From a virus, in IMG/VR virus record IMGVR_UViG_3300008740_000024, positions 1 to 35,143 of that record: DNA of 35,143 nt; one strand, given 5' to 3'. The notes below the pieces were generated by a model that did no database searches, was not told where the DNA came from, and was given only the letters and a program-made list of their open reading frames with translations. Position numbers and translations under genes: made by a program. Of this stretch, positions 3,167 through 34,213 are shown piece after piece. Every line of letters starts with the position of its first letter. Positions within the stretch are counted from its first letter, which is position 1.

Positions 3167-3182
3167 ACAATATGTTTATATA

Positions 3183-3198: not shown

Positions 3199-3200
3199 GA

Positions 3201-13067: not shown

Positions 13068-13074
13068 GATTATG

Positions 13075-13683
13075 TCACCCTGTCCTATAGCCTTCGATAT
13101 AGACTTTTAATCCGTTACCTGCTGTAGATGATCCTATCTGATCAATATCTATACTGATTTCTGCATCATTAGCTAAAGCAGTATCTGAAATAACTGCTGC
13201 TGAAGCTGCTGTGGTTGATGTGTTTTCTGCAGCATCTATTGAAAGTTTTGTTGAAAGTATAGTTGTTCCTGCTTCGTTAATATCCACGATAATTGTTGCA
13301 CCAACAGGAGCTGTTGTTACACTAGCTCTTACACCTGTTACTGTCATAGCAAAAGGCATACGATATTTTACCTTGTTAGTTCCTGTTGTTAGATTTGTAG
13401 TTTCATCACTACATGCCAACATTATGACTTCGTTAAATACATTAGAATGAACATCTCTGTCAGGCATATTCAATACCCTAGTATTTGAAGCACTAACAGT
13501 TCCTGCATCTATTCTTACTCTTTTGGTTGTAGTTGACGGATCGGTAATAACAATATCATCATCTTTAATATAGGCTATTTCTGATCCACCACCGTTCAAG
13601 AAATTGCCAATCTTGTTTAAAGCTGTTCCACCGAATTTAGTGGAAGTTGATGCTGAATCGCCTGTAATAGTATCAAAGACCAT
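13075..13683 (-). CDS. virion protein with a duplicated structural domain
   Basis: 202 residues. The C-terminal 110 residues (MLACSDETTN, PFAMTVTGVRASV, GATIIVDINEAGT, DIDQIGSSTAG, LKVYIEGY) match almost block by block the C-terminal domain of the protein at 26966-27466. The N-terminal 90 residues differ (NFLNGGGSEIAYI), suggesting a trimeric fibre or decoration trunk fused to the shared domain. A late-type box precedes it. Likely a decoration or fibre protein of the particle; the exact position is unknown. Confidence 0.75.
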   Translation of the reverse strand: MVFDTITGDSASTSTKFGGTALNKIGNFLNGGGSEIAYIKDDDIVITDPSTTTKRVRIDAGTVSASNTRVLNMPDRDVHSNVFNEVIMLACSDETTNLTTGTNKVKYRMPFAMTVTGVRASVTTAPVGATIIVDINEAGTTILSTKLSIDAAENTSTTAASAAVISDTALANDAEISIDIDQIGSSTAGNGLKVYIEGYRTG

Positions 13684-13708: not shown

Positions 13709-13720
13709 AAAGAGAAGTAT
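13709..13720 (-). promoter_or_regulatory. late box, sense ATACTTCTCTTT
   Basis: Core ACTTC ends 31 nt before ATG 13683 and abuts the stop of 13720-14820. Strong match to the shared late box. Confidence 0.7.
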
Positions 13721-14820
13721 TAATAAACCTCATCATTTACACTACTAGCCTCATTTGTGACAAATTGAATCGCATTTAATTGATTTTTGGTAGTCATTCT
13801 TGCCTTGTCGTGAAAATCTGCTATTTCCGTAGTTGTCAAAGGTGCTGATTCCAAAAACCAATGTGCCAATGATCCCTGTAAAGTTCGAGTTCCTGATTTA
13901 TCTGCTCCGACATATGCATTTACTGTGGTAGTCAGATTATCTATTACTGATGAAGATACACTTCCTATTGATACTTTGTCCAAGAATATCTGTAAAACCT
14001 CACTACCTGATACTACTGTTTCAAAATCATCAGCATGGTAATCATCAGCATGGTAATCTGCATCAGTTAATACCGTTGAATTTATACATATACTATGCCA
14101 ATTATTGTCAAATATGTTTGTCGCTGTGGTTGCTACTAATGATACCGTATCAGTTCCATCTTCTATTTCACAATTTACGGAATTTTGAACTACTGCTGTT
14201 GCAAAATCATCAGTATCAAAGTTTGCAGTTAGATAATTATCTGCTAATGCAGGATCAATAATTACCTCAATTCCTGATTCAGAGGGTTGTTCTTGAAGAT
14301 AATCTGCTGCCAAATAATCATCAGAATCAAAGTCAGGGTTTTCATCAGTCACGTTGGATTTAGAATATATTGCCCCACCTTGACGGTTTGATTTAAACCA
14401 AAATATCATGCCAAAGTGTGCTGTTTGTGGGGTTATTGTTGTGTTATGTGGTATCGTTATGTATGAACTTCCGTCAAAATATCCCTCTGCCCCATGTTTT
14501 AAATCTGTTAATGGAAATGTTATAGTTCCTGTAGTTGAATTGGTTACGGGATATGTTACCTTGCTTCCTGGTGTCAAAGTAAATGCAAAATCATCTCTAT
14601 TTCTATATTCAGATTTTAATGCGTTTGTTGCATCTGCCCCACCAGCTTCCTCTACTGAAAATGTCCTCACATGCATTTCTGGAGCTAGTGCAATCTTTTC
14701 CTTTAATCCATCTTGTTCGACTTCTGGGTTATTTGCCTGTAGTGATTCTAATATCTTGTTTAGTGTTTGCCTGTCAAGTGTCTTTCCACTTCTAAGATAA
14801 TTGTTAATATCTGTTGTCAT
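13720..14820 (-). CDS. LamG/concanavalin-like virion protein with Asp-rich insert
   Basis: 366 residues. The N-terminal 60 residues are helical and may attach to the baseplate. A LamG-like domain follows: GYFDGSSYITIP, FGMIFWFKS, then NNWHSICINS, IFLDKVSIGS, YVGADKSGTRTLQGSLAHW and TTTEIADF. The domain is split by an insert carrying repeated acidic-aromatic units (SDDYLAADYL, TDDFA, HADDYHADDF). Such acidic runs could bind calcium. A role in binding surface glycans is inferred. ATG overlaps the upstream stop (TAATG). Confidence 0.75.
   Translation of the reverse strand: MTTDINNYLRSGKTLDRQTLNKILESLQANNPEVEQDGLKEKIALAPEMHVRTFSVEEAGGADATNALKSEYRNRDDFAFTLTPGSKVTYPVTNSTTGTITFPLTDLKHGAEGYFDGSSYITIPHNTTITPQTAHFGMIFWFKSNRQGGAIYSKSNVTDENPDFDSDDYLAADYLQEQPSESGIEVIIDPALADNYLTANFDTDDFATAVVQNSVNCEIEDGTDTVSLVATTATNIFDNNWHSICINSTVLTDADYHADDYHADDFETVVSGSEVLQIFLDKVSIGSVSSSVIDNLTTTVNAYVGADKSGTRTLQGSLAHWFLESAPLTTTEIADFHDKARMTTKNQLNAIQFVTNEASSVNDEVY
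14026..14055. repeat. 15-bp tandem direct repeat, two copies
   Basis: Two exact head-to-tail copies of ATCATCAGCATGGTA. In the leftward frame they encode the repeated YHADD units of the LamG-like protein, a sign of recent slippage or in-frame expansion. Confidence 0.8.
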
Positions 14821-16520
14821 TAATAATGCACTTCCTCTAATCCCAATGATATTCTATCTGCTCCAACTATTGAAGAATTATTTTGAACTGATAATGTAAC
14901 ATCTACTGTCATTATATTGGCCTTTGTGTTTAGACCTGTCTTTGAATCTACTATTCTGCAAAATAAACCCAATGGTATTCTTAATGTTGGTGGACTTACT
15001 GTAATTTGTGAATAGAATCTTCGTTCCAAACCCAATACTTCACCTGCACTTATCATGGCTTCCCTTGCAGTAGCTTCTTCCTGACCACCACTAAAATTGA
15101 CTACTTTTTCCCTAGTTCCATATTTTGCTTTTGCCCTTGTATTTTCCAATATGATTTGAAGTGATTTCTGATTATAAACTCTCATACTAAACAAACCTGT
15201 TGCACTTGACCAGGAATCACCATCTGTTGAAGTCCAAAATGTTCCTGTGCCTGTTCTATAATCCATTGTATAATTATGAGATGAATCACCATACTTGTGT
15301 AAGACTAGCATTAATGGATCATCTGGGTTTACATTTACCTTTTCATCTAGGCTAAATTCTGCCCAATCACCTGATGTGCTGAATGTTTGTAACTTTGTTG
15401 ATGTTATGGATATTGACTTTCTAAGATTATCTCTCTTTGGAGCATTTGAAGCTCCTGTATCAACTCCTACTATCTCAAATGTTGTATTGGTTGCAGGTGT
15501 TCCTGTCTTGGCCATTCTGATTGCCAATTTTCCAATATTGTCAGTTGCAGGTGTAAATGGTATTCCTATCCATGATGAGTGTGATTGTCTTACAGCATTT
15601 TCACTACCACTATTCTGTTGATCAATCTTTACACTATTGCTACCAAGCCCATGAATTGTTGAGAAAGCAGAATCAAATGATGAATCTCGCCAAGAGTTTG
15701 AAGCATTTAATAAATATCCAATTCTTGATGAATCCCAATTCTGTGCTGTATCGCCTGACAGGTTGTTTGTAAATAAGAATCCTGAATCAATACTTCCTGG
15801 ATCACGCAGAAACAAATCCCTATCTGCATCAACTCCCCACATCATATTTCCCGTTGAAGCCAATTCTGATAATGTTGTTGCGTATGTTGCATATGATTTT
15901 TGCAAGTCAGGTAGTTTTAAATCTAAATCTATAACACCATTTGATGTTATTCCCAAATCAGTATTATTTAATCCCTGATCTGCCTGATGATCCTCATCTT
16001 CTACTACATCTTTAAAGAGTTCTGAAATCTTTGTTGATGTATCATTTGAATCTACTGTGACACCATCTGCTGTTTTACTTTGAAACCTTTTGATGTTTGT
16101 AACCCTATCTTTTAATATTACACCCCAACCAACACATGACAATACTACTGATTGCCTGTTTGTAGCAGGTCTTACTATATCAACATCATATATTTTACCA
16201 TAAAACCATCTCTGTAAAAGTGGTTGCGACTTGCCTAGATATATCTGAATATCCCATTGTCTTTCAATCTTACTATCACGCCTTACCTTTTCCGTATCTG
16301 TCAAAGTATTATCTGGATCATCTATTTTAAGAATACAATATCCATAATCAGAATTTACACCCATGTGAATTGAGAGTTCCCTTAGTTTGAAATCTTGCTG
16401 TGGTGATACTGATGAAGTTGTTGTTGATGTTTCATATCTGTATTTCTCTACTCCTGTTCTATCAGTAATTATGATTTTAGGCTCTAATGGGTTTGTATCA
16501 TAGTTTGGTGTTAGTGACAT
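14820..16520 (-). CDS. tail hub/baseplate protein with carbohydrate-binding-like insert
   Basis: 566 residues. The N-terminal part (PKIIITDRTGVEKYRYE, FKLRELSIHMG, ILKIDDPDNTLTD, LLQRWFYGKIYDVDIVRP, VLSCVGWGVILKD) has the look of phage hub proteins that follow the tape measure. The middle (SWIGIPFTPATDNIGKLAIRM, TFEIVGVDTG, PLMLVLHKYGD) resembles a beta-sandwich carbohydrate-binding insert. The C-terminus returns to hub-like sequence (AREAMISAGEVLGLERRFY). It starts right at the tape measure stop (TAATG-type overlap). It would cap the tail tube and organise the tip. Confidence 0.75.
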   Translation of the reverse strand: MSLTPNYDTNPLEPKIIITDRTGVEKYRYETSTTTSSVSPQQDFKLRELSIHMGVNSDYGYCILKIDDPDNTLTDTEKVRRDSKIERQWDIQIYLGKSQPLLQRWFYGKIYDVDIVRPATNRQSVVLSCVGWGVILKDRVTNIKRFQSKTADGVTVDSNDTSTKISELFKDVVEDEDHQADQGLNNTDLGITSNGVIDLDLKLPDLQKSYATYATTLSELASTGNMMWGVDADRDLFLRDPGSIDSGFLFTNNLSGDTAQNWDSSRIGYLLNASNSWRDSSFDSAFSTIHGLGSNSVKIDQQNSGSENAVRQSHSSWIGIPFTPATDNIGKLAIRMAKTGTPATNTTFEIVGVDTGASNAPKRDNLRKSISITSTKLQTFSTSGDWAEFSLDEKVNVNPDDPLMLVLHKYGDSSHNYTMDYRTGTGTFWTSTDGDSWSSATGLFSMRVYNQKSLQIILENTRAKAKYGTREKVVNFSGGQEEATAREAMISAGEVLGLERRFYSQITVSPPTLRIPLGLFCRIVDSKTGLNTKANIMTVDVTLSVQNNSSIVGADRISLGLEEVHY

Positions 16521-19042
16521 TATGTTACTCCCGTTGACATGCCTTCCATTCGCTGCTGATATGCCAACATATCTATCAATGTTTGTTCGCCTTGTAACTC
16601 ATCTTTGATTATCTTAAATGCTTCACTTGGCGATAATGTTGGTAGTTGATTAGAATATCCTGTTGCAGTTTGCATACGCTGTGCATCTCTTTCTCTCTGT
16701 GTTTCTGCTGTTCCTATACCAATACTGTTAGCCCATCTTTTCATATAACGCCAAGAATCAATACGCCACTCCATTCTATCTTCCATTTCATCAAATGATT
16801 TTTGCCACTCTTGTATATTTTCATTTAGTTTTTCCTGTAAATCCTGATCTAATGTTCCATATCTACTAGCTTGCCCTCTTATTGTTGAAGCACTTGCCCC
16901 ACCCAAACCTCTTTGTGCATTTAACATGCCTACCTTTCTTCTACCATGATCTCTGATTATACTTGGGGTTGATGTTTTTGTTGCTGTTGAAGAAATTTCC
17001 TTATAATAATCTGCGTGTTGTTGTCTTACTTCTGCGTTATCTGCTGCTCTTTGTGCATTAATTTGTTCAACTTGTGATGCTGATGTGATTCCTAATGATG
17101 TTTTAGCTGACTTTCTATGTTCTTCTAGTTGTTGTGTAATAGTTTTTAATCCACCACCCCAAGCAATAATAGCAGAATCCCATTCAGATTCTGTTCCTGA
17201 ATGACTAATTGGTTTTCTGCCTGATTTATAATAATCTAATAATAATGGGTGGTTTGGTATTATGTTACCATATTTATCTCTAAAGTCAAAACCTATTCCC
17301 ATGCCTGTATTAGTTCCATAGTCAAAACTAGCACCTGCTCTTATAGCCAATCTTTGTGATTCAATATATTTTTCCCATTGTGGCCCGCTAATACTTTTGC
17401 CTGTTAATATTTGTGGTTTATCACCTATATACGTTACACCTGAAGGTCTATTAAATGTTAAACCTGTTCCACTAGAATACCCTGTCTTTTCTCTCAAAAA
17501 CTCTTTACCCCAAAATTCAGGCGTATATGGACTACCTGCAGCACCAAACCCAAAGTTAGTTCCTGATGGGCTTCTCATTAAAGCCTGTGAAGTTGGTAAT
17601 TTTCCTAATGCTTCTGCTGTCTTTTCATTCATGGCTTTTTGCATAAATTCATCTATTGTATCTAAAGCTTCTGGTTGATCTAAATTTGCTTGTTTTAATT
17701 TTATTAATACATCAAACTTCTGATCAGGTGTTAATCCCCTATAAGCAATTTGTTGTTCTATATTACCAAGTGGCGAAGCAGTAATACCAATTTGTTCTAC
17801 TGCTTTTTGTTTTGGTGGTGCTACAGATAAAGGCTCTGCTCCTGCTCCCTCTGCTGTAGGAATCCAACTTGGTATATTAGCTGGATCAGTTGTAACACCC
17901 CAAGTGTTTTGGGGGGTTGCTACACCCCCACCCCTAAAATCTGGGGGCTTTACAAGTGTAACATCTTTGCCTACACTTCGGGCAATCATTAATTGTGCAT
18001 TATAATTTGCTATCTTATCTGCTGTGTTTTGATAACCTGCAGAAAGCTGTGATAAATATGCTATTTGCTGTGCTGCTATAAATGTTAGTTTAGGAATTTC
18101 TTTTGATGTTCCTTCCATAGCTTCACCCAAACCTTTTGTTGATTGTGTTGCATCACCCAACTTTTCATCAACTTCTTCCATTTGATTTGATAATCCTAAT
18201 AATCCACCTGTTATTTCTTCTATACTTCCAAATACTTTACCCAAATGCATATCCCATGTTGACATGACAATAGTTAATCCTGTTATTGCCCAACCAATCG
18301 GGCCAAGTGCCAAGTATAAACCTCTAAATGCACTACCTAATGTCCTTGTGCCAAAAGCTGACATCATAGCTGTTCTACCTGCTGTAGTAAATATTGCAGG
18401 TAACATCTTTGTTCTTGTTATAAGTGCATCTGTTTGATAATTTAATGCTGCTGTCTTTGCTCTTAAAACCGACATGGATATACCTGCTGTTTTCATTGTT
18501 GCTATTGTTTGCACCATTGAAACTGTAACGTTTGCTATGTTTGCCCCAAATAACAACCAAACATCATTTAATTTGGCTTTTTCTATTCTAAGTTTTTCTT
18601 CTTTTACCACCATATCTGCTGTAGCTGTGTTTATTTCTTTCATCAAGTTTAATGCTTTTCTAGAATTTCCCATACCTCTTGCTACTAATTCATCATATCT
18701 TAACTGCTTTGCATTTAACAAATCTTGAGCTCTTGCAACACCTATCTTTGCCATAGAAACTCTATGTTCTGCTGAAGCTAAGTTTGTAAGTGAAGTATAT
18801 GTTTGAACTGCTGATGTTGAAAGGTTAAGCATACCTTGTGTCATAGTTTGGAATCCTACTGCTGATGCTGCTGCTTTATCACCTGTTGATGAAACAGAAG
18901 TCTTTAACCTATCTGTAGCCTGACTAGCTTTAACAGTCTTGGCTTCCATCTGACCTAACTGATGTGTAAGTTTCTGTATCTGCCCTGTAGCTTTGTTAAT
19001 ATCTACAGATATGACAAGTCTTGAAGTTTCGTTTCTAGCCAT
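16520..19042 (-). CDS. tail tape measure protein
   Basis: 840 residues. The N-terminus has the typical tape measure opening (VISVDINKATGQIQKLTHQL), followed by a long helical coiled region. Hydrophobic segments lie at about 161-183 and 239-260 (FRGLYLALGPIGWAITGLTIVM), and a long helical, Gln/Glu-rich C-terminal half follows. It lies in the expected place after the tail tube and the G/GT chaperones and before the hub gene. By the usual rule of about 1.5 angstrom per residue, the tail would be roughly 120 nm, suggesting a long non-contractile tail. No lysozyme or peptidase motif was seen inside it. No tail sheath gene is recognised. Confidence 0.9.
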   Translation of the reverse strand: MARNETSRLVISVDINKATGQIQKLTHQLGQMEAKTVKASQATDRLKTSVSSTGDKAAASAVGFQTMTQGMLNLSTSAVQTYTSLTNLASAEHRVSMAKIGVARAQDLLNAKQLRYDELVARGMGNSRKALNLMKEINTATADMVVKEEKLRIEKAKLNDVWLLFGANIANVTVSMVQTIATMKTAGISMSVLRAKTAALNYQTDALITRTKMLPAIFTTAGRTAMMSAFGTRTLGSAFRGLYLALGPIGWAITGLTIVMSTWDMHLGKVFGSIEEITGGLLGLSNQMEEVDEKLGDATQSTKGLGEAMEGTSKEIPKLTFIAAQQIAYLSQLSAGYQNTADKIANYNAQLMIARSVGKDVTLVKPPDFRGGGVATPQNTWGVTTDPANIPSWIPTAEGAGAEPLSVAPPKQKAVEQIGITASPLGNIEQQIAYRGLTPDQKFDVLIKLKQANLDQPEALDTIDEFMQKAMNEKTAEALGKLPTSQALMRSPSGTNFGFGAAGSPYTPEFWGKEFLREKTGYSSGTGLTFNRPSGVTYIGDKPQILTGKSISGPQWEKYIESQRLAIRAGASFDYGTNTGMGIGFDFRDKYGNIIPNHPLLLDYYKSGRKPISHSGTESEWDSAIIAWGGGLKTITQQLEEHRKSAKTSLGITSASQVEQINAQRAADNAEVRQQHADYYKEISSTATKTSTPSIIRDHGRRKVGMLNAQRGLGGASASTIRGQASRYGTLDQDLQEKLNENIQEWQKSFDEMEDRMEWRIDSWRYMKRWANSIGIGTAETQRERDAQRMQTATGYSNQLPTLSPSEAFKIIKDELQGEQTLIDMLAYQQRMEGMSTGVT

Positions 19043-19067
19043 GACTTAACAATACACCATTCAATAA

Positions 19068-19077
19068 TAGGAAGTTA
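19068..19077 (-). promoter_or_regulatory. late box variant, sense ATAACTTCCTA
   Basis: Core ACTTC ends 29 nt before the tape measure ATG (19042) and overlaps the stop of the gp10-like gene. Confidence 0.55.
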
Positions 19078-19725
19078 TCCAACATCTGCCTTTTTAATAA
19101 ACTGACCTGTTCTTCTTCTTCTACCAAGCCTACGTTTAAACTGTTTTCTTCCTGTTCTTACCCTAATTAAAGATATTTTACCCCTACCTCTCAACGTTGA
19201 TCTATGAGTTCCTGTAAGACCTACTGTTTTTGTAAGATTTGATTGTTTGGACATTCCAATATGATCAAATGTTTTCCAATGTCTTTTCAATTTTGCTCTT
19301 ACTAACTGCCCCATAACATCATCTAATAGTCTTGAAATATGAATTATATGTGGTTGAGCCTTTGTTCCAGGGTGCATTACTCTTTTAAACCAAACTTCCT
19401 CACCTACTCTATCCCAATAAAAATGCATATATTTTACATTCCTAGCAAGTATCTCATGTGGTTTAGTTCCATTTTCTAACCAATTAAATACGTTAGGCAT
19501 AGATGTATCTATTTCAATAAAGTTGTCACCTCGTTTTACAACACGCCATGAATTAGCATATGATCCTGTAGCTCTTGGTGCTGCCTGTTTTATTGCCTTT
19601 AATGTTAATTCCTCAAACTCTTTTAAATATTCGTTTACTAGCTTCACTTTGTTTTTTTGTAGTGTTTGTAAGTTTTTCTTATATTTATCCAATCCTACCC
19701 ACTTCATTGATTGTATTCTAGCCAA
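19075..19725 (-). CDS. HK97 gp10-like tail completion protein with Arg-rich tail
   Basis: 216 residues. The core (LKAIKQAAPRATGSYANSW, WLENGTKPHEI, HPGTKAQPHI) matches the HK97-gp10-like head-tail joining family, with the conserved GTKPH and HPGTKAxPH. The last 45 residues are very basic (GRKQFKRRLGRRRRTG), an extension not usual for the family that could touch packaged DNA at the neck. Start TTG 19725 is chosen for a GGAG site nine bases upstream; ATG 19707 is the alternative. It overlaps the end of the GT extension frame. Confidence 0.8.
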   Translation of the reverse strand: MARIQSMKWVGLDKYKKNLQTLQKNKVKLVNEYLKEFEELTLKAIKQAAPRATGSYANSWRVVKRGDNFIEIDTSMPNVFNWLENGTKPHEILARNVKYMHFYWDRVGEEVWFKRVMHPGTKAQPHIIHISRLLDDVMGQLVRAKLKRHWKTFDHIGMSKQSNLTKTVGLTGTHRSTLRGRGKISLIRVRTGRKQFKRRLGRRRRTGQFIKKADVG

Positions 19726-19990
19726 CTCTTGAAGCTCCTTCTGAATCTTGTTCTCTTAATTTATTAATAATGCTTTGAACTTTATTCAAATCTGACACTA
19801 TATCTAATCCATGTTTTTCCTTTACATGAAGTATATCTGAAAGATTGCCAAACCCGTTGTTTATAGCTGATATGATTATAGAATATTCTGTTAATTCAGG
19901 AAAGTCAACTACTGCTTTTGTCCGTTCTTGTTGATCTCCTTCGTAGAGGAAGCGAACTGCCTCGCCAAATCTGTTGATCCAAATTTTGTT
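19718..19990 (-). CDS. T-like extension of the tail chaperone, reached by -1 frameshift
   Basis: Open frame of 90 residues plus stop, with no start of its own. It begins at the slippery heptamer and continues NKIWINRFGEAVRFLYEGDQ, then TKAVVDFPELTEYS and SDILHVKEKHGLD. Together with 98 codons of the first frame, the fused product would be 188 residues. Its place between tail tube and tape measure is exactly that of lambda G/GT tail assembly chaperones, which bind the tape measure and recruit tube protein. The sequence is protein-like throughout and stops seven bases inside the gp10-like gene. Confidence 0.85.
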   Translation of the reverse strand, partial: NKIWINRFGEAVRFLYEGDQQERTKAVVDFPELTEYSIIISAINNGFGNLSDILHVKEKHGLDIVSDLNKVQSIINKLREQDSEGASRVG

Positions 19991-20283
19991 AAAAAAACAA
20001 ATGTAGAAGCAGTAATCTCTCTTATTTCCCCTTCTGTTAGAGTATCTAAATCTTCTTCCTTAAAATCTTTTAATCCTAATGGTAATACTGTATTAAACCA
20101 TTCTTCTTCAATATTCTCTACTTCTGTTTGAGTTAATTTCTCAATTCCTTTTTCTTCTAGCTTCTCATGTTTGTTACGGAGTTCCTTTATAACCTTTAAC
20201 TCTTTTCTTGTTACTATATCCTTAAAATGATAAGTTAAATTATCACGAACTTTGATACAACCATTCTCTAAATCTAATTCCAT
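19909..20283 (-). CDS. tail assembly chaperone, G-like
   Basis: 124 residues, acidic and helical (EKLEEKGIEKLTQTEVENIEEE), ending in a short lysine/glutamine tail (INKNGQKQ). No sequence family is recognised; the call rests on position between tail tube and tape measure and on the overlapping -1 frame. The product without frameshift would be the abundant G form. The region upstream (20284-20316) lacks a clear late box and is A/T-rich. Confidence 0.8.
   Translation of the reverse strand: MELDLENGCIKVRDNLTYHFKDIVTRKELKVIKELRNKHEKLEEKGIEKLTQTEVENIEEEWFNTVLPLGLKDFKEEDLDTLTEGEIREITASTFVFLTKFGSTDLARQFASSTKEINKNGQKQ
19990..19996 (-). other. -1 ribosomal frameshift slippery heptamer T TTT TTA
   Basis: In the zero frame the codons are GTT TTT TTA ACA, giving X XXY YYZ = T TTT TTA, the same heptamer as the HIV-1 gag-pol site. 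Slipping one base back leads directly into the 90-residue T-like frame. A run of seven T is also a place where assembly errors occur, so read depth should be inspected. Confidence 0.75.
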
Positions 20284-20316
20284 GCTTAATTATTAATAAT
20301 AAGTGCTATTAATAAA

Positions 20317-21231
20317 CTATGCTATAGATACGCCTTCTGCACGAGCTGTTATACTCTCTACAAATGCATCTGTTGTAGTTGCAGATTTAGAACTTGACCA
20401 ACCTGCTAAAACACAGTTGGTATATGTTAATGTCTTACTTGGACTTGATGAGAATTTGTATGTTGCTGCTCTAGCTGTCTTTGATTTAAAGTCACCAATC
20501 AATGTTGTGTCTTTTACAAAGCAATCAACTGAAAACTCTATTCTTCTTGCTGTTGGTTTTGCATATGTTATCGTTTGCTCACCATTTACTGATAATACTG
20601 ACATATCTCTGTTTACTGTAGTTGAGAATCTTCTTTCAGGTCTTGCTACAGAGTTCCAAGTGAAAGGATCACTACCTGCATCTGTATGAGTTACAGGACT
20701 TGCAGTTGGGATTGAAACAAAAGTTGGGTTAGTTAGTCCATGAGCTGTTGCAGGAGTTGTAATTTCCTTACAAATCCAGGTCATATCTGCGTTCCAAGTT
20801 CCTCTCTCTAATGATAGAGTTGTAGAAGTTGGTAAGCAACCTTTTAAAATAGTATAATATTCTGTGTTATCTAGTTTTTCTGAAAATATGAATGACAATG
20901 AAGCATCAATAGATCCTGATCCACCACCACTTGCTGAAAGACCATAATTAAGTAAAAGTGTGTCAGTTGGATTAAATCGCATTGTAAATGTATAAAGTTC
21001 GCCTGTTTTTACTGCATCAACTACATCTTCTGATCCTAGAACATCAACATCTTGATGAACAATGTCAGGGTTTAATGTTATCTCTGTGTTAAGTCCTGCT
21101 GCTGTAAAACCTGGACTTGAAGTTGGTGTTACTCCATAAGAAGTCGGGCCTGTTAATATGCTTGATGTTTCCTGAATATATTGTAAAGGCTTAACTATAT
21201 CTTTCTTGGTAGTTACGTTATGTGCTGCCAT
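20317..21231 (-). CDS. major tail tube protein
   Basis: 304 residues, beta-rich, with tail tube-like features: DVDVLGSEDVVDAVKTGELY near residue 60-80, FTMRFNPTDTLLLNYGL, SFIFSEKLDNTEYYTILKG, LSLERGTWNADMTWICKE, and a C-terminal SPSKTLTYTNCVLAGWS. It precedes the G/GT chaperones, as expected. A strong late box lies upstream. It polymerises as rings to form the tail tube. Confidence 0.85.
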   Translation of the reverse strand: MAAHNVTTKKDIVKPLQYIQETSSILTGPTSYGVTPTSSPGFTAAGLNTEITLNPDIVHQDVDVLGSEDVVDAVKTGELYTFTMRFNPTDTLLLNYGLSASGGGSGSIDASLSFIFSEKLDNTEYYTILKGCLPTSTTLSLERGTWNADMTWICKEITTPATAHGLTNPTFVSIPTASPVTHTDAGSDPFTWNSVARPERRFSTTVNRDMSVLSVNGEQTITYAKPTARRIEFSVDCFVKDTTLIGDFKSKTARAATYKFSSSPSKTLTYTNCVLAGWSSSKSATTTDAFVESITARAEGVSIA

Positions 21232-21256
21232 ATTCTTTTTCTTAGTTTAAAATCAT

Positions 21257-21268
21257 AAAGAGAAGTAT
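21257..21268 (-). promoter_or_regulatory. late box, sense ATACTTCTCTTT
   Basis: Core ACTTC ends 31 nt before the tail tube ATG (21231) and overlaps the stop of the upstream gene (TTAATACTTC). One of the best matches. Confidence 0.75.
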
Positions 21269-21783
21269 TAAGATTTGTCCTTAAACCATGCAACAAGCAA
21301 GAAACCTTGTGAACTTGGATTAGTATCTAATTCCCCCTCAGGCTCTATTCTGTTAAACTCTATTTCAGAGTTTTCAAAATATTGTGCCTCGCTGTTAGCC
21401 CCGTTTGACTTTGTTAACCTGGTAGAGTTATCAGGTGCTATTTCCCATATTATTCTATTTATTTCATCTTCCATTAATGATAGTGTTTCCATTGTTTCGC
21501 CCCAAACATCAAATGATATTTCTGTTCGCCAATAATGTGAGGCATCACCATTTGGATCGTTATCTGAATCTTCTGCTCTCTGCCTACTTACTACGTTTAT
21601 GTAAATCTTGTTCGGGCCTGTATAATCTTGTCTTGCTAGGAAATCAGGATCATCAGTTCCATTCTCAATATCAGGAGTTATGCTGTTTGTGTTTCCACTT
21701 ACCCAATCTTCTGTTAAATGATAATCTAGGGTTTTGTCAAGGTTTTCCCTATCGCCACTAAGGTTTCTAATCGTGACGGCCAT
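21268..21783 (-). CDS. tail terminator/tail completion protein
   Basis: 171 residues with IYINVVSRQRAEDSD, HYWRTEISFDVWGET and LMEDEINRIIWEIAPDNST, typical of small tail-terminator or completion proteins that cap the tube. It lies between the connector genes and the tail tube gene, as in lambda-like orders. It overlaps the tiny zinc-finger gene by 17 bases. Family assignment is by position and pattern. Confidence 0.7.
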   Translation of the reverse strand: MAVTIRNLSGDRENLDKTLDYHLTEDWVSGNTNSITPDIENGTDDPDFLARQDYTGPNKIYINVVSRQRAEDSDNDPNGDASHYWRTEISFDVWGETMETLSLMEDEINRIIWEIAPDNSTRLTKSNGANSEAQYFENSEIEFNRIEPEGELDTNPSSQGFLLVAWFKDKS

Positions 21784-21859
21784 GCCACTCTAAATGATCC
21801 TCATACTGATTGTTGCCATCATCTGTTATGGTTTCGCCACAAACTTCACAAACTACCAT
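21767..21859 (-). CDS. C2H2-like zinc-finger micro-protein, 30 residues
   Basis: Starts at ATG 21859, overlapping the connector stop, and ends at TAG 21767 within the terminator gene. The product MVVCEVCGETITDDG continues to YEDHLEWH, giving C-x2-C ... H-x3-H, a one-finger protein with almost nothing else. Its place inside the virion operon and exact overlaps argue that it is translated. Could be a structural zinc peptide or a regulator. Confidence 0.65.
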   Translation of the reverse strand: MVVCEVCGETITDDGNNQYEDHLEWHGRHD

Positions 21860-22173
21860 ACAAATCTCACGTTACCCCAATTACCCTCTTGACTAGGTAT
21901 CATTTGGTCTTTTACTGCTTCAAGCATTTCTTCTGCTTGTCTAACAAATTGAGATTCTCTACCTGTCCTGGCTTGTTGTATAAGTCCTGCAGCATAAAGT
22001 TCTGCTATAGTGTCAATTCTATCTGGAACTGTAGTCAAGTCACTTGTTAAGTTCAAAACGCTGTTTATTCTAGTGGTTGCAACCTGTAATGATGTTGAAA
22101 CGTTTGCAGGAGTTGAAGCCTTTACGTTACCCCACACCAATTTCTGCACTTCAGAAGTATTACCGTAAACCAT
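21853..22173 (-). CDS. head-tail connector protein
   Basis: 106 residues from ATG 22173 (MVYGNTSEVQKLVWGNV); a longer frame from 22203 exists, but the late box spacing (31 nt) favours 22173. The helical body (RIDTIAELYAAGLIQQARTG, QAEEMLEAVKDQ) resembles gp6/gp15-like connector proteins that sit under the portal. Position downstream of the capsid gene fits. Confidence 0.7.
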   Translation of the reverse strand: MVYGNTSEVQKLVWGNVKASTPANVSTSLQVATTRINSVLNLTSDLTTVPDRIDTIAELYAAGLIQQARTGRESQFVRQAEEMLEAVKDQMIPSQEGNWGNVRFVW

Positions 22174-22200
22174 ATACATCTTTATTAAACAATAGTTATA

Positions 22201-22209
22201 CAAGAAGTT
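22201..22209 (-). promoter_or_regulatory. late box variant, sense TAACTTCTTG
   Basis: Core ACTTC ends 31 nt before ATG 22173, in the 125-base gap after the metzincin gene. The rest of that gap shows no gene. Confidence 0.6.
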
Positions 22210-22328
22210 ATGTTCCTTTTATGGCTACAAAATGCAGATAAATATCTTAGTTCTTCTACTGATGATAAAAATTTCGACCTAGAATATGACTTTATTCATT
22301 ATATATTAACAAAGGATATTAAATACCG

Positions 22329-23117
22329 TCAATCACATAAAACTATAGCCCCCCTATCAATTCCACAGAAAAAGGGAATCCAATCAGGGAATGGATATTT
22401 GAATCCACTTTCACCATAAATCAAATAAACCATTTCAATATCAAGATCAGTTATTTCTACAGATACATCTGAAAAGGGATCAAATGAGTGATACATTATT
22501 GATTCAGATTCACAACTTTCAGGACATGATAGAGTATTGTAATAATGTTCCAATCCGATTCCATGCCCAAACTCATGCTTCACAATCCGTTCTATGCTCT
22601 CAATCGGAAAATTCTCTCTATGAACATTCAATTCAATTTTATGATCTAATCCCTTTGATATATCAATCTCTATATGATTGTTATAACCTGTTGTATAGAC
22701 TGTTATAAATGCCCATTTATGCCAGGACTTGCTAAAGTCAAATGATGTAGTTCCTATTGCATTATCATTATCATTAAATTTCTCAAATACTATGAATATG
22801 TTACATTCTTCAAAATCGCTAGTATGTTTATCTGCGTGTTCATACCATTCAAATATTAATATATGAAATGCCCAATCACCACCTGATCTTTCTAGTTTAT
22901 GTTGCCAATCAAATACTGAATCTATAGTTACATCTCTTATTTCTTTCCAATTAGTAATTTCTGATTTGTCAGGTAGCATTATACATACATTTGGATTATC
23001 TTTAAAGTTCAATCCATGAATTATATTATACATATTTGCATTGGCCATGCCTACTATACCTGCAAATACTATCATACAACAAATGAAAAAAAGAAGGGTA
23101 TACGCTACCGTAATCAT
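22329..23117 (-). CDS. membrane-anchored or secreted metzincin (matrixin-like) metalloprotease
   Basis: 262 residues. The N-terminal 26 residues (VAYTLLFFICCMIVFAGIV) are a signal or anchor segment, so the domain acts outside the membrane. HEFGHGIGLEH at 181-191 is the full HExxHxxGxxH metzincin zinc site, followed by the Met-turn SIMYHSF at 206-212. A final YLIYGESGF matches matrixin ends. Located in the virion block next to two small membrane proteins. Inferred role: cleavage of S-layer or surface protein during release or entry. A host-derived protease acquired by the virus is likely. It has its own late box. Confidence 0.9.
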   Translation of the reverse strand: MITVAYTLLFFICCMIVFAGIVGMANANMYNIIHGLNFKDNPNVCIMLPDKSEITNWKEIRDVTIDSVFDWQHKLERSGGDWAFHILIFEWYEHADKHTSDFEECNIFIVFEKFNDNDNAIGTTSFDFSKSWHKWAFITVYTTGYNNHIEIDISKGLDHKIELNVHRENFPIESIERIVKHEFGHGIGLEHYYNTLSCPESCESESIMYHSFDPFSDVSVEITDLDIEMVYLIYGESGFKYPFPDWIPFFCGIDRGAIVLCD

Positions 23118-23142
23118 GTTATAGTGTTATTACATAATAACG

Positions 23143-23150
23143 TAAGAAGT
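23143..23150 (-). promoter_or_regulatory. late box variant, sense ACTTCTTA
   Basis: Core ACTTC ends 29 nt before the metzincin ATG (23117) and follows the upstream stop directly (TAAACTTC). Confidence 0.6.
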
Positions 23151-23315
23151 TTATTCGCTTCTGTGTTTTATCTGATCTGCTGCTATGAATGCTGCTACAG
23201 GTGCTAAGAGCAATACTGCTCCCTCTATATCAGCTACAACGTCTTTGGCAATCAAAAGTGCCGATACCAATCCATAACAGATTATTCCTATGTATCTTGT
23301 TGACCACATATCCAT
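23151..23315 (-). CDS. holin-like membrane protein, about 53 residues
   Basis: Two hydrophobic segments (YIGIICYGLVSALLIA and GAVLLLAPVAAFIAA) joined by a short KDVVADIE loop, with a basic end (KHRSE). Start ATG 23315 or, better placed after GGAG, ATG 23309 (MWSTRYIGII). Size and topology fit small two-helix holins. It sits between a coiled-coil membrane protein and the metzincin. Confidence 0.7.
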   Translation of the reverse strand: MDMWSTRYIGIICYGLVSALLIAKDVVADIEGAVLLLAPVAAFIAADQIKHRSE

Positions 23316-23334
23316 CACTCCTTTGAATATTGAG

Positions 23335-23346
23335 AAAAGAAGTATT
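23335..23346 (-). promoter_or_regulatory. late box, sense AATACTTCTTTT
   Basis: Core ACTTC ends 30 nt before ATG 23309 and lies just after the stop of the upstream gene. Confidence 0.7.
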
Positions 23347-23348
23347 AT

Positions 23349-23549
23349 TTAAAGGTAGTCAATTATTGAAATAATGCCTATAGCACCTATGATAACGCCT
23401 AAAGCAGATACCCATTTATTAAAGCGTTTTTCAGATAATTCTCTGTCTAATGTGATATAAGAATCAATCTTTTCTATCCTATTACATGTATCATCAAGAC
23501 GTTCTTCAAACTTGTCTATTCGTTGGAAAATACGTTCTTCGGTATCCAT
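23349..23549 (-). CDS. small coiled-coil protein with C-terminal membrane segment
   Basis: 66 residues. The first 45 form a charged helix (ERIFQRIDKFEERLDDTCNR), followed by a hydrophobic end (WVSALGVIIGAIGIISIIDYL). This is the layout of many phage holin-associated proteins (for example XhlA-like). With the two-helix protein and metzincin it makes a plausible lysis set. The family call is by architecture only. Confidence 0.7.
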   Translation of the reverse strand: MDTEERIFQRIDKFEERLDDTCNRIEKIDSYITLDRELSEKRFNKWVSALGVIIGAIGIISIIDYL

Positions 23550-23576
23550 TACTATATGAAAATAAAAAAAAGATAA

Positions 23577-23586
23577 GGGAAGTTTT
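23577..23586 (-). promoter_or_regulatory. late box variant, sense AAAACTTCCC
   Basis: Core ACTTC ends 30 nt before ATG 23549, followed by a T-rich stretch (TCTTTTTTTTATTTTC) before the start. The T run could also terminate capsid transcripts. Confidence 0.55.
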
Positions 23587-23607
23587 TTGTCAGTCTAACC
23601 TTATTGA

Positions 23608-25563
23608 CTAATCTTGTTTGCTACTAAGAACAACGTAAGCTGCTGAATCGAGTATTCCACCGTTTGTTCTGTGTGTTGCCACTACAGATACGGATTGGTT
23701 ATCAATGTTCTTGTCAAACTCTAATTCGAGTTTTCTTCCTGAAGCAACTGCAAAAGCCTTGCCTTTAACCCACATAATATTTCTATATGAGTTGTTAGCA
23801 GTTCTTAATGTGTTTGTAACAAATAGGTCGACACCTAAGTATCGTTCCAATCTACCTTGTTGAGAGATAGCTGGATCACCATTTTGCACATAAGTTGCTA
23901 TGTCAGGATCAGAAATTAATGTTCTAAAAGCTCTAGGTGTGATAGCCAAGACAACGTTGCCTGGTGCTACATCATAACCTGCTTCTTCTAGTTTTTGACG
24001 ACCAAACTCGACACCCTCTTTCAAGAACTCACCTGCTGCATCTTCTTCTGAAGTAGAAGTTACGTTTGCACCTGTGTCGGCTCTTAAATGTTTGCCAGCT
24101 ATGAAAGTGTTTGTGCCACTTGCTGCTGCTGCTGGGGTTGCTACATCTTTTAAGATGATACTTGCTTCGTCTTGGATAGCTCGTAGTCTTGCAGTTGAAC
24201 GGATTGCTTCGAGCAAACCTGCAGGATATTTTTCAATCTCTGTTTTCTTTACTACTTGACGGAATCCTCTTGGAGTATCTGCTGCTACATCTACACTCGT
24301 TAAAGTGTGAGTTGAAGCACTAATATCGCTTCCACCCTCTGTAATATCTGCAAATGCAGGTATGTCAATCTTGTAGAAACGAACTTTGTCGTTACCCTGT
24401 GGGATTTGTTTGAACTGTGTCCATTGTCTTACAGGTTTAACACTAATGCCACCTGGTAAAACAATTATATCTCTGTTTGCATTGACTGTTGGAATTGTTC
24501 CACTTGTGGTAATTCCTTCTGTAACAGGTGATCTCTCTTTGACAGTGTTGGCCTCGTAAAAGTCCTCTTTGTCAATTTCGATAACTACGCTGTTACCTTT
24601 CAAAACTTTCTTTAGCTCTGAAACTTGTTCGTCAACGTTTTCCTCAACATAAGTTTTTGGAGTTGCGTTTTCTTCAATCTTTGCTTTTGGAGTATATGTT
24701 GCACGAATCTCATCTTGTATGGATTCTAGTTTGGCATCAACCTTTGCATCAATCTCTGTTTCAACATTGGTTTTCTTCTCGGACTTGTCGCAACCACAAT
24801 CTTCTTTCTCGGTTTGAGTTGAAGGAGTTTCTGTTTGGACAGGTTGTGTTTCTGCTTCTGCTTCTGCCTCTGGGGCTTTTGTAGGAACAGGAACGCATTT
24901 ACCGTCTTTCCATGCTTGTCCTTCTGGACATTGAGGTTGTTCGGTCTTTGGATCTTCCGTTGTATTCACAGTAACCTTTGTATCGGTTTCTTCTGCCATA
25001 TAAGTGTTGTTGTTATTAATATTATTAACAGAAGTATTTTCTTGTTTCTTACATTCTGAATCACAAATTGCTTTTGCTTGATCATCTATTTTCTTGCCAC
25101 TATCTGCTTTATCTTTCAAACAATCACTAACGCAATTCTCAAATTTAACATTTTCAGTAGTAAAATACTCTATAACGTCTAAGGTTGCTTCAGGTATTCC
25201 AGGAGTTTCAACTATTGACATTTCTTTGAAATTTAAACCTAATGGAACATTGTAACAGTTACCCTCTTTGTGACATATCTTTTCTTCTGTTTCAGGCTCT
25301 GCTCCTAGACTTACTTTAAACTCTTTATTTACTAATTGTTTCTCTATTTCTGGATTATCTACTGTTGCTTCATAATTAATCTGCATTTTTTCTTCATCAT
25401 ACATTAAATGTGCTGTTCCAATAATACCCTCATTATCTTGAATATGATTCCATCTCAAAGGAACATCTTTACCATCAGCTTTGGCCAATTCTTCAGGATA
25501 ATAGAAATTACCATTTCTACTAACTCTTGGTAAGGCTAACAAGCCTGATATTCTCTTTACCAT
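23608..25563 (-). CDS. fused prohead protease and HK97-fold major capsid protein
   Basis: 651 residues. The first 135 match prohead serine proteases: WNHIQDNEGIIGTA with H40, FKVSLGAEP with S85, and FKEMSIVETPGIPEA (114-126). A cysteine- and Asn-rich linker follows (NNINNNNTY; CPEGQAWKDGKCVP). A charged delta-like region (about 255-335) then leads to the HK97-type capsid domain from about 340 (ITTSGTIPTVNANRDIIVLP, FAVASGRKLELEF at the end). Protease and shell protein are made as one chain, so cleavage must release the capsid unit. ATG at residue 189 (24999) could give a separate capsid product, but no ribosome binding site is seen there. Confidence 0.9.
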   Translation of the reverse strand: MVKRISGLLALPRVSRNGNFYYPEELAKADGKDVPLRWNHIQDNEGIIGTAHLMYDEEKMQINYEATVDNPEIEKQLVNKEFKVSLGAEPETEEKICHKEGNCYNVPLGLNFKEMSIVETPGIPEATLDVIEYFTTENVKFENCVSDCLKDKADSGKKIDDQAKAICDSECKKQENTSVNNINNNNTYMAEETDTKVTVNTTEDPKTEQPQCPEGQAWKDGKCVPVPTKAPEAEAEAETQPVQTETPSTQTEKEDCGCDKSEKKTNVETEIDAKVDAKLESIQDEIRATYTPKAKIEENATPKTYVEENVDEQVSELKKVLKGNSVVIEIDKEDFYEANTVKERSPVTEGITTSGTIPTVNANRDIIVLPGGISVKPVRQWTQFKQIPQGNDKVRFYKIDIPAFADITEGGSDISASTHTLTSVDVAADTPRGFRQVVKKTEIEKYPAGLLEAIRSTARLRAIQDEASIILKDVATPAAAASGTNTFIAGKHLRADTGANVTSTSEEDAAGEFLKEGVEFGRQKLEEAGYDVAPGNVVLAITPRAFRTLISDPDIATYVQNGDPAISQQGRLERYLGVDLFVTNTLRTANNSYRNIMWVKGKAFAVASGRKLELEFDKNIDNQSVSVVATHRTNGGILDSAAYVVLSSKQD

Positions 25564-25590
25564 TAACCAAATGTTAATAATTATTAATTA

Positions 25591-25599
25591 TTAGAAGTA
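25591..25599 (-). promoter_or_regulatory. late box variant, sense TTACTTCTAA
   Basis: Core ACTTC ends 31 nt before the capsid ATG (25563), in an A/T-rich gap that also has the palindrome TTAATAATTATTAA near 25574. Confidence 0.6.
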
Positions 25600-25621
25600 A
25601 AATACCAATTCTACACTAGAA

Positions 25622-26926
25622 TTACTGTTTTTTAGGCCTACCTCTAGGCTTTGGTATCTTTTCTTTGACTAGATTTAACAATTCTTCCAACTTTTCATCA
25701 AATTCAGGTTGATTCGTTCGTAAATCATTCGTTGGTGTAACTGATGTAATTGGTGGTGTATCGCCATCATTTTCATCATCTAAATCAATAATTGTGTGTT
25801 TTTTAAGATATTTCCTTACTTCATTCCTTGTTATTGTTCCTTTTTCAAACAATTTCTCTATTTCTTCTGCTCCCAACTCGAATTTTGATTCAGTTTCAAA
25901 TACTATTGATACATCTGCCTTTTTTGGATCAACTTTATTGATTTTAAGGACAGGATCAATGATTTCCTGCTTTATTTGGGTTGCTAATCGTCTTTGTATT
26001 CTTTTTACCTTTCTCAATACTACTGAATCGGTTGTTTCTGATGAAGCTCTTGCTGTAAAACCTGCATTAAACATCTGAAGTGGGAATTGTGAGCCTACTT
26101 CAATAACATCTTTCTGCAAATGGTCAATATAACCATCAAACTTTGAAGCAGGGTTTACTTCGAATATCTTTACATCAAATTCCTTGTCAGTTAATATCTT
26201 TGCTCCTGGTTTTGCATTTTTAAAGGCTTCTGCTTGTTTCTCAATGAATTGTTCACCTGCATCTTGGAAGTGAATAAGCATCATAGGACTAGCATATGAT
26301 TCAAATATCTTTACCATAGCATTTTCTACTTTCCACATACTTGTAATAGGACTAGGCTCATAAACTCCGTCTATTATTCTAGTTCCTGCTACGGATTGGA
26401 ATAATCCTCTACCCCAAACTTCTCTGTGTCTATTAGAGAATTTCAAATGAATTATTGTTTTTGGATCAAGTTCGTTTTTAACTGCATCTACTTCCTGAAT
26501 ATACTTTTTAATCTTACCATGTGAATCTCTTATTATCTCTTTTACTGTTGTAATATCAACTTCTGATACATCTGCTAAAGCAGGGTATTTCTCAAATATT
26601 GCATTTCCTGTTACTACTAGGCTATGCATGGCATCTTCTAATTTTCTCTCAAAATCAGTTGCTTCTAGCCACTTGTTAATTTTTTCTAAAGCCTTTTTAT
26701 TCTGTGTCTTTATCTTTATCCCAGAGCCTAATATCAGTTGGACATAAGTGTCACAAGCCAAACTCAATCTAGCATCATGGTCATTTACATAAAATAAATC
26801 ATCAAATGATACTTCAGGCTCGAAAGTGTTTGCAAACCCATCTGAACTCTTTATGAGTGCTTTTCCATGATCCTCATTGATAACCTCTACAGTTCCTTCA
26901 GATACTTTTTTGGAAAATAATGCCAT
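25622..26926 (-). CDS. portal protein with C-terminal AT-hook
   Basis: 434 residues. Portal-family signs are VNDHDARLSLACDTYVQLIL, MHSLVVTGNAIFEKYP, IIHLKFSNRHREVWGRGLFQS, a long stem/wing helix region, and QMFNAGFTARASSETTDSVV. It lies between terminase/neck genes and the capsid gene. The C-terminal tail ends PKPRGRPKKQ, an AT-hook core (RGRP) that can bind the minor groove of A/T-rich DNA. The portal forms the dodecameric ring through which DNA is packaged. Confidence 0.9.
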   Translation of the reverse strand: MALFSKKVSEGTVEVINEDHGKALIKSSDGFANTFEPEVSFDDLFYVNDHDARLSLACDTYVQLILGSGIKIKTQNKKALEKINKWLEATDFERKLEDAMHSLVVTGNAIFEKYPALADVSEVDITTVKEIIRDSHGKIKKYIQEVDAVKNELDPKTIIHLKFSNRHREVWGRGLFQSVAGTRIIDGVYEPSPITSMWKVENAMVKIFESYASPMMLIHFQDAGEQFIEKQAEAFKNAKPGAKILTDKEFDVKIFEVNPASKFDGYIDHLQKDVIEVGSQFPLQMFNAGFTARASSETTDSVVLRKVKRIQRRLATQIKQEIIDPVLKINKVDPKKADVSIVFETESKFELGAEEIEKLFEKGTITRNEVRKYLKKHTIIDLDDENDGDTPPITSVTPTNDLRTNQPEFDEKLEELLNLVKEKIPKPRGRPKKQ

Positions 26927-26955
26927 TTACAATAAAATGACGGTAATTTTTAATT

Positions 26956-26965
26956 AGAGAAGTAT
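26956..26965 (-). promoter_or_regulatory. late box, sense ATACTTCTCT
   Basis: Core ACTTC ends 33 nt before the portal ATG (26926); adjacent to the upstream stop. Confidence 0.7.
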
Positions 26966-27466
26966 TTAGGATTGATAACCTGTTAAATATACTTTTAGAC
27001 CTTTTCCTGCTGTTCCTGATCCAATTTGGTCAATATCCACAGTTATTACTGCTCCACTTGCTAGGGCAGTATCGGTCAAAGTTGGTGATTGAGCTGCTGT
27101 CGCAGTTGAAGTTTCATCTGCATCAATAACTATCTTATTTGAAGTCATGATACTAGTTCCACCCTCATTTACATCAACTATCAAAGTTGATCCTGCAGGT
27201 GCTGTTTGGACACTTGCTGAAATACCTGTTAAAGTAAATGCATAAGGCATAATGAATTTAACAACATCTGTTGCTACTGCCAAATCTGTAGTTGATTCGT
27301 CAGAACATGCTAACATCAAACATTCTGTTTTTGCTGCACTAGCTATATCTGCTAATACTATAGTTCCATCTTGAATCTTGGAAGATATTACTGCATCTGC
27401 AGCTAATTCTATTTGCTCTACTGTTGATCCAACACCTGATGTATCTTGTGGTGGATAATTAGCCAT
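26966..27466 (-). CDS. virion protein sharing a domain with 13075-13683
   Basis: 166 residues from ATG 27466 (MANYPPQDTSGVGSTVEQIE), which lies two bases after the upstream stop; a longer frame from 27526 would overlap that gene. The C-terminal domain (MLACSDEST, PYAFTLTGISASV, GSTLIVDVNEGGT, DIDQIGSGTAGKGLKVYL) is a clear paralogue of 13075-13683. The N-terminal AADAVISSKIQDGTI resembles fibre-trunk repeats. Possibly a head decoration or head-fibre protein, since it lies in the head gene cluster. Confidence 0.75.
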   Translation of the reverse strand: MANYPPQDTSGVGSTVEQIELAADAVISSKIQDGTIVLADIASAAKTECLMLACSDESTTDLAVATDVVKFIMPYAFTLTGISASVQTAPAGSTLIVDVNEGGTSIMTSNKIVIDADETSTATAAQSPTLTDTALASGAVITVDIDQIGSGTAGKGLKVYLTGYQS

Positions 27467-27467
27467 T

Positions 27468-27812
27468 CTAGCCTTCCATTGATACTTCGCTGATTCTACA
27501 CAATCTAATTGTAGTTCCACTACCATTTGTAGTTCTCATATTGAAAGTATCGTCAAATCTTACGGGAACGTCAAAAATATATAATGCATCTGCTACTAGA
27601 TTATTACCACTATTTAGTTTCAACCATGTAGTGCCTGAATCTACTGTGCATTGAACATCTACTGCTGAACTTACTGCTACTGTTATTCTAAATTTAGAGG
27701 CTTCTTCAGAGCCTGAAATTGCTTCTGGGTTTAAATCTGCTGCAAACCACTCTGCGTTTTGTGCCTTTGTTCCACTTGCAGAGCCTATAACTTCTACGTT
27801 AGAACTAACCAT
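27468..27812 (-). CDS. small beta-rich virion protein, 114 residues
   Basis: Beta-rich sequence (FRITVAVSSAVDVQCTVDSG, YIFDVPVRFDDTFNMRT) typical of phage decoration or neck proteins. It is preceded by a strong late box. It ends ATG GAA GGC TAG directly before the next gene. Exact role unknown. Confidence 0.7.
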   Translation of the reverse strand: MVSSNVEVIGSASGTKAQNAEWFAADLNPEAISGSEEASKFRITVAVSSAVDVQCTVDSGTTWLKLNSGNNLVADALYIFDVPVRFDDTFNMRTTNGSGTTIRLCRISEVSMEG

Positions 27813-27836
27813 ATATCATTCTTTAATTAAAATAAT

Positions 27837-27848
27837 AAAGAGAAGTAT
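27837..27848 (-). promoter_or_regulatory. late box, sense ATACTTCTCTTT
   Basis: Core ACTTC ends 30 nt before ATG 27812; directly follows the TAG of the upstream gene. Confidence 0.75.
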
Positions 27849-28220
27849 CTAAGTTATTGTAGGAACTGATCTTACCAGGAGTTCGTCAGAGCCTTTTATT
27901 CCTACAGCAGATATGCGTTCATCTGTTGCAGAACATTGTATTACTACCCTATATACACCCTGAATATCTATCTTGTTGATCGTTGGTTTATATCGCCAAG
28001 TTCCTGCACCTGCAGATACTATTTCTGCATCTTCTGATACTATATACCAATCAGGCCTTTCTTTTGGATAAATCTTAATCTTTAATGTATAGCCTGAAAG
28101 TGACTGTGCTGAAGATAATGCCTCATCACTATAGATAGTGCCTGTTAAGGCATATGCGTTTGTATTGACATAATCACCCGAAGCCCAAGTCTTTTGGTCT
28201 AATTTCAAATAGAAAGGCAT
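27849..28220 (-). CDS. beta-sandwich virion protein, BppU-N-like
   Basis: 123 residues. The pattern ALTGTIYSDEALSSAQSL, GYTLKIKIYPKE, GTWRYKPTI, GVYRVVIQC resembles the Ig-like N-terminal domain seen in BppU-type baseplate and other phage structural proteins. In this head cluster it may decorate the capsid or neck. Assignment is by sequence pattern only. Confidence 0.65.
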   Translation of the reverse strand: MPFYLKLDQKTWASGDYVNTNAYALTGTIYSDEALSSAQSLSGYTLKIKIYPKERPDWYIVSEDAEIVSAGAGTWRYKPTINKIDIQGVYRVVIQCSATDERISAVGIKGSDELLVRSVPTIT

Positions 28221-28246
28221 ACAATATCAATGGCTAATCTAATATC

Positions 28247-28258
28247 AAAAGAAGTATT
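28247..28258 (-). promoter_or_regulatory. late box, sense AATACTTCTTTT
   Basis: Core ACTTC ends 31 nt before ATG 28220; it begins at the base after the terminase stop TAG. Confidence 0.75.
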
Positions 28259-34211: not shown

Positions 34212-34213
34212 AA

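Follow-up and report, generated by a model that had tools for sequence, protein, structure and literature searches.

The window, meaning the whole stretch of DNA analysed here, is the 35,143-base record of a head-tail virus. It features genes for a terminase large subunit, a portal, an HK97-type capsid protein encoded as a protease-capsid fusion, a tape measure and a putative major tail protein (Table 1), and MCM helicase and nuclease genes are also located on the virion-gene strand. In a phage collection, only Pro-Nvie1, a provirus of Nitrososphaera viennensis, matches this virus; its terminase is 35% and its portal 22% identical. Of 400 genomes in the class of the ammonia-oxidising archaea (AOA), 40 encode related terminases; this class was found via AmoA, and a search of the class starting from G021 returned only genomes without a match. 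The similarity of the MCM did not identify the host. Based on the homology to Pro-Nvie1 and the terminase relatives in the AOA class, the hosts are most likely Nitrososphaeria. Several terminase relatives per genome are found in G615 (7 matches), G473, G548, G601, G303 and other genomes of the AOA class, which suggests that such genomes carry many proviruses.

Several other genes of the window have features of their own. The product of 5101-5880 weakly matches the exonuclease domain of DNA polymerase B (E 0.00066) and lacks a polymerase domain, and among the compared records it is found only in G002, where it is 85% identical. A rightward gene pair at 32721-34996 is very A+T-rich (GC 22–25%) and weakly conserved in distant relatives, and its second product resembles, by eye, a class II glutamine amidotransferase. 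Related domains are repeated in several adhesin- or fibre-like products encoded at 9789-13683 and 26966-27526; the 13075 product shares its matching relatives with the 26966 product, and the 11382 product matches its neighbours more than once.

The earlier note had claimed eleven copies of a late box with the core ACTTC before virion genes, and all of them are present at their places on the minus strand (Table 1). The exact 12-mer ATACTTCTCTTT occurs at three of these sites (13709, 21257 and 27837) and has no occurrence on the plus strand of the window. Two boxes at first appeared too near their start codons, 23335 at -28 and 22201 at -29. The orthologues start at the next in-frame ATG (23309, MWST, and 22173, MVYG), which places the boxes at -34 and -35. 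The two exceptions vanish with the orthologue start codons, therefore the spacing predicted the correct start. With these corrections ACTTC begins 33–37 nt before each of the eleven starts, and its last C lies at -29 to -33, five times at -31, in agreement with the distance originally described (29–33 nt, 31 in five cases).

The same note had proposed a comparison with shuffled sequence, and the enrichment is clear. ACTTC begins at -38 to -28 in 12 of the 45 gene starts, versus a mean of 0.33 ACTTC-bearing starts (maximum 4 in 2000) for dinucleotide-shuffled upstream regions and a mean of 0.63 (maximum 5 in 5000) for random minus-strand positions. The twelfth start, that of the 8481-8717 gene, probably bears ACTTC by chance; this site and an ACTTC at -41 before the 1755-1931 gene were judged to be chance occurrences. 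The weakest of the eleven boxes is the 23143 site, and in two close relatives the orthologues of its gene have a TATA-type promoter. The protein encoded there, which is metalloprotease-like and has a HEFGHGIGLEH motif, seems to differ in promoter class between the window and these two relatives. When a matrix was trained only on relatives with ~50% identical portals, its top eight sites in the window were seven of the claimed boxes and a site inside the capsid gene.

Table 1. Genes, boxes and promoter regions in the window. Distances give the first base of ACTTC relative to the start codon.
Feature	Sequence	Position	Strand	Remarks
Terminase large subunit		28259-29647		
Portal gene		25622-26926	-	
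HK97-type capsid protein (protease-capsid fusion gene)		23608-25563	-	
Tape measure gene		16520-19042	-	
Putative major tail protein gene		20317-21231	-	
Late box	ATACTTCTTTTG	28246-28257	-	-35, before 27849-28220 gene
Late box	ATACTTCTCTTT	27837-27848	-	-34, before 27468-27812 gene
Late box	ATACTTCTCTAA	26954-26965	-	-37, before portal gene
Late box	TTACTTCTAATA	25589-25600	-	-35, before protease-capsid fusion gene
Late box variant	AAACTTCCCTTA	23574-23585	-	-34, before 23349-23549 gene; variant shared by L043 and L046
Late box	ATACTTCTTTTC	23334-23345	-	-34, before small ORF 23151-23309 (orthologue start MWST)
Weak box, doubtful member	AAACTTCTTACG	23141-23152	-	-33, before metalloprotease-like gene 22329-23117
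Late box	ATAACTTCTTGT	22199-22210	-	-35, before 21853-22173 gene (orthologue start MVYG)
Late box	ATACTTCTCTTT	21257-21268	-	-35, before putative major tail protein gene
Late box	ATAACTTCCTAT	19066-19077	-	-33, before tape measure gene; close relatives have TTAGTTCCCTTT
Late box	ATACTTCTCTTT	13709-13720	-	-35, before 13075-13683 gene
Internal late box	ATACTTCTGTTA	25026-25037	-	36 nt upstream of in-frame ATG 24999 (M189), within protease-capsid gene
Predicted nested gene (scaffold and major capsid protein without protease domain)		23608-24999	-	starts at M189 (MAEETD); expression putative
TATA-type early promoter	ACTTATATACC	3167-3205	-	element at -30 before 2099-3166 gene
Promoter region of G-like gene 19909-20283	AGTTTATTA	20284-20330	-	TATA-type, no late box
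Small zinc-ribbon protein		8963-9181	-	TATA-type promoter; related to multi-copy host family
Second copy of zinc-ribbon family		442-648	-	

Loss of the box in relatives had been named as evidence against it. About 20 related viral contigs, with portals 45–81% identical, keep the box at an unchanged register, although these viruses are not independent samples. In the relatives it nearly always lies on the strand of the virion genes, with most copies between -32 and -37. No other 5-mer in the viral upstream regions is as strongly enriched by position as ACTTC, and 62 of its 92 occurrences fall within four positions. ACTTC and AGTTC exchange at orthologous promoters, namely those of the tape measure and of the 27849 gene, the latter featuring TTAGTTCTCTTT in relatives L043 and L046. 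The box is also found before virion genes in three Nitrososphaera-type proviruses (Pro-Nvie1 and those in G409 and G441), whose portals and terminases are 22–35% identical to those of the window. It is located there at -33 to -37 and reads TAGTTCTCTTT or, once, ATACTTCTCTTT. The box was not seen in the more distant proviruses of the same class that were examined, nor in the examined proviruses of the multi-terminase genomes listed above, therefore it marks a lineage and not all tailed viruses of the class. A degenerate scan of viral contigs with the whole box gave, among the matches listed, a single chance-like match per contig, and its matches were left out of the evidence.

A second position-fixed class of elements in the viral upstream regions is built around GTTTATATACC at -33 to -23, with TTATA/TTTAT enriched at -31 to -27. 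Members of this TATA class are found before early-type genes, among them the zinc-ribbon gene and the 2099-3166 gene; several relatives also have one before the homologue of 29640-30110, a gene just ahead of the terminase. The late box had been reported as missing from the early gene starts that were checked, and these genes indeed have a TATA-type promoter at the matching register. The late box is restricted to virion genes and is distinct from the early promoters, giving two classes by gene module.

The G-like gene (20283) had been listed as an exception among the virion genes. It does lack the late box, however in most relatives a TATA-class element precedes it, therefore it conforms to the other promoter class; its orthologues mostly have GGTTTAAATACC, GGCTTATAAAGG or GTTTATATACTAC at the promoter. 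A gap of ~180 nt (19725-19909) separates the G-like gene from the following gene. Near the G-like gene, several relatives feature a conserved TTACTTCGTGT 121 nt past the stop of the gene upstream, and this stretch may encode the tail chaperone's T-part in a shifted frame. The statement that no TATA consensus is conserved next to the late box also stands in part. It holds for the Nitrososphaera-type proviruses, however the ~50%-identity relatives have a TTTATTA-like stretch after the box.

The box often incorporates a stop codon (TAATACTTC, TAGTTCTC), so it could look stop-linked, and at packed junctions the upstream TAA or TAG touches or overlaps it. A stop-linked terminator or an RNA-processing signal between genes had been put forward as the alternative in the earlier note. 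The box-to-start distance has an SD of 2.0 nt (n = 126) versus an SD of 44 nt (n = 105) for the stop-to-box distance, and the stop-linked terminator is rejected. Boxes also lie within upstream ORFs, within the capsid gene and at a distance of several hundred bases from any stop, and a divergent gene pair in G008 (L050 3949-4137 and 4178-4840) carries a box in each direction without an upstream stop. The RNA around the boxes shows no consistent fold (z -1.6 to +0.9), and a signal of this type is extremely improbable. A signal within the mRNA, acting in translation or as part of the leader, would account for the fixed distance to the start codon. However, TATA-type elements at a matching distance in the same genomes fit leaderless starts, which would place the box outside the mRNA, and we regard such a signal as very improbable.

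Host use of the box was assessed in samples of ~400 kb each from G403, which holds Pro-Nvie1, and from G188, another AOA; a small host regulon is possible with samples of this size. In both genomes TTTATA elements are overrepresented about five-fold between -38 and -28. ACTTC/AGTTC is not enriched at -38 to -28 before the 464 and 407 host genes of the two samples. In G403, four of the six full-box matches fall in the provirus, and outside it the full box is not in excess across the genome. In the sampled parts of these two genomes the box shows no sign of use by the host.

The set of eleven boxes is not complete, as a strong site inside the protease-capsid gene (25026-25037) had been missed. 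It is the third best match genome-wide of the matrix trained on the ~50%-identity relatives. All 21 distinct protease-capsid fusion genes examined (20 and that of L205) contain the internal box, 36 nt, once 33 nt, before an in-frame ATG. This ATG is located at the protease/capsid junction, where the protease domain ends. There the linker is hypervariable, yet Thr-Ser (ACTTCT) and Met are kept, and the proviruses have Ser-Ser (AGTTCT). Every marine-type copy spells Thr-Ser as ACTTCT, a spelling that codon use predicts for only about 11% of Thr-Ser pairs. No recurrent internal box of this kind was found in other genes among 16 virus and provirus pieces. These features imply a putative nested late promoter that would make free capsid protein, a scaffold and capsid without the protease; the shorter product is a prediction. 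In phage lambda C/Nu3 a shorter product starts in frame inside the capsid protease gene. The nesting is similar, however in the protease-capsid fusion a promoter box is predicted inside the gene, beyond a translation start. The internal box is new here, and the protease-capsid fusion of Pro-Nvie1 was already described in PMC6563490, where the word "promoter" is absent.

The start-linked spacing, the conservation at orthologous promoters, the two classes in the same register, the lack of enrichment in two hosts and the internal capsid copy together provide strong support for a virus-specific late promoter at the BRE/TATA position, which the earlier note had suggested. Its further suggestion of a virus-encoded reader is less secure, there being no TFIIB-family gene in nine viral records. 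Judged from the sequence comparisons, the box is very probably a late core promoter specific to a lineage of Nitrososphaeria head-tail viruses. Among the points against this reading are the apparently TATA-type promoter of the 22329 gene in relatives and the failure of some more distant proviruses of the same class to show the box. We infer the promoter role, the late action, the leaderless start and a reader other than the usual TFB/TBP pair, with "late" taken from gene function. In the proposed mechanism the box would be the core element of a late, virion-gene regulon. It would fill the BRE position ~33–37 nt upstream of the start codon and run into the TATA position, and the leaderless transcript would have its 5' end on the start codon or very close to it. 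Almost every separately spaced virion gene would have its own copy, and overlapping genes would ride on the gene upstream. The internal box would give a second, shorter transcript for scaffold and capsid without protease, and with it capsid in excess of protease. The early genes and the tail-chaperone-like G-like gene would use an ordinary host-type TATA promoter in the same register.

The box resembles the canonical leaderless archaeal BRE/TATA promoter in its distance to the start codon, and the viral and host TATA-type promoters share this register. The position would fit an element at -35 to -24 of a transcription start, with ACTTC starting at -33 to -37 and TATA at -31 to -27, both relative to the start codon. 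However, canonical BRE is purine-rich and the core of the viral box is ACTTCT/AGTTCT, and the TATA is weak in the marine-type viruses and absent in the Nitrososphaera-type proviruses. Pro-Nvie1 (FR725450; PMC6563490) has a homologous terminase, portal, protease-capsid fusion and tail genes together with the box, and differs in having AGTTC for ACTTC and no recognisable TATA. In the open literature, accounts of transcription in archaeal viruses cover repressors, early regulatory sequences and the GTC element (PMC11065993, PMC5569661). In rudiviruses and fuselloviruses (SIRV2, SSV) a conserved early regulatory sequence surrounds a strong host-type BRE/TATA and is also found in host genes (PMC11065993). 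As with the late box, one core-promoter sequence is common to many genes of an archaeal virus, however the SIRV2/SSV set is early and host-type, whereas the late box is located on virion genes and is not enriched in two hosts. The GTC element of SIRV1/SIRV2 promoters is virus-specific like the late box; it accompanies canonical TATA and BRE (PMC5569661), whereas the late box stands in place of BRE. His2 has temporal classes without a late core motif (PMC7221443). No report of this box, or of any lineage-specific late core promoter in archaeal viruses, was found in open-licence papers.

The promoter reading leaves two readers nearly equal, as shares of that reading. The first is a host TFB paralogue, perhaps with TBP on the weak TATA, that would be available or favoured late, with no viral initiation factor. 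TFIIB-domain matches are numerous in the two AOA genomes (16 in G188 and 11 in G403) and absent from the nine viral records, and the box is common to virus groups in which no shared early protein or regulator was found, the Nitrososphaera-type proviruses being possibly not intact. A dedicated TFB would, however, have few host targets, given the host results above. A host paralogue is a tentative choice, at somewhat under an even chance.

The second is a virus-encoded factor that would replace or redirect TFB/TBP in the manner of a phage late sigma factor, and its chance falls just short of even. Zinc-ribbon proteins (65–83 aa) and a family of cysteine-containing 355-aa proteins (2099-3166 in the window) are encoded in all box-bearing marine-type records with the early module available, mostly behind TATA-type promoters. 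The 355-aa protein is a candidate reader, and the zinc-ribbon protein is a candidate regulator as a lead only. Zinc-ribbon relatives form a multi-copy host family, with 6–15 in each of six AOA genomes (G188, G403, G104, G299, G409, G441), and in G188 one copy overlaps the end of a TFB gene (L238 14605-14790 and 14783-15694). However, among 21 zinc-ribbon neighbourhoods this is the one overlap, and one more copy is located within about 2 kb of two TFB genes; the other examined neighbourhoods are without TFB. Neither family was found in the Nitrososphaera-type proviruses, and fold and family give no function for the candidates: the AlphaFold2 model of the 355-aa protein has low confidence (pLDDT 44), and profile searches against solved structures returned nothing convincing.

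Phage late promoters of the T4 gp55 type provide virus-specific transcription of late structural genes and have a virus-encoded reader. Herpesvirus late promoters, as outlined in PMC6541308, likewise differ from the host core promoter and are read by virus-encoded proteins. Those readers are known and viral, whereas for the late box viral and host readers are both candidates. The chances are even that a dedicated non-canonical initiation factor switches the host RNA polymerase to the late core promoter, with the internal copy setting the capsid:protease ratio, and that, taken jointly with this and by analogy, such a switch is the archaeal counterpart of the phage late sigma switch.

If true, these findings would show how late and early genes are separated in archaeal viruses without a recognisable RNA polymerase or TFB, and a testable role would follow for the AOA TFB paralogues or for a viral protein. 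The box would serve to correct start codons and to predict a nested capsid gene, and it would provide a DNA signature for finding the late genes and the hosts of uncultivated viruses.
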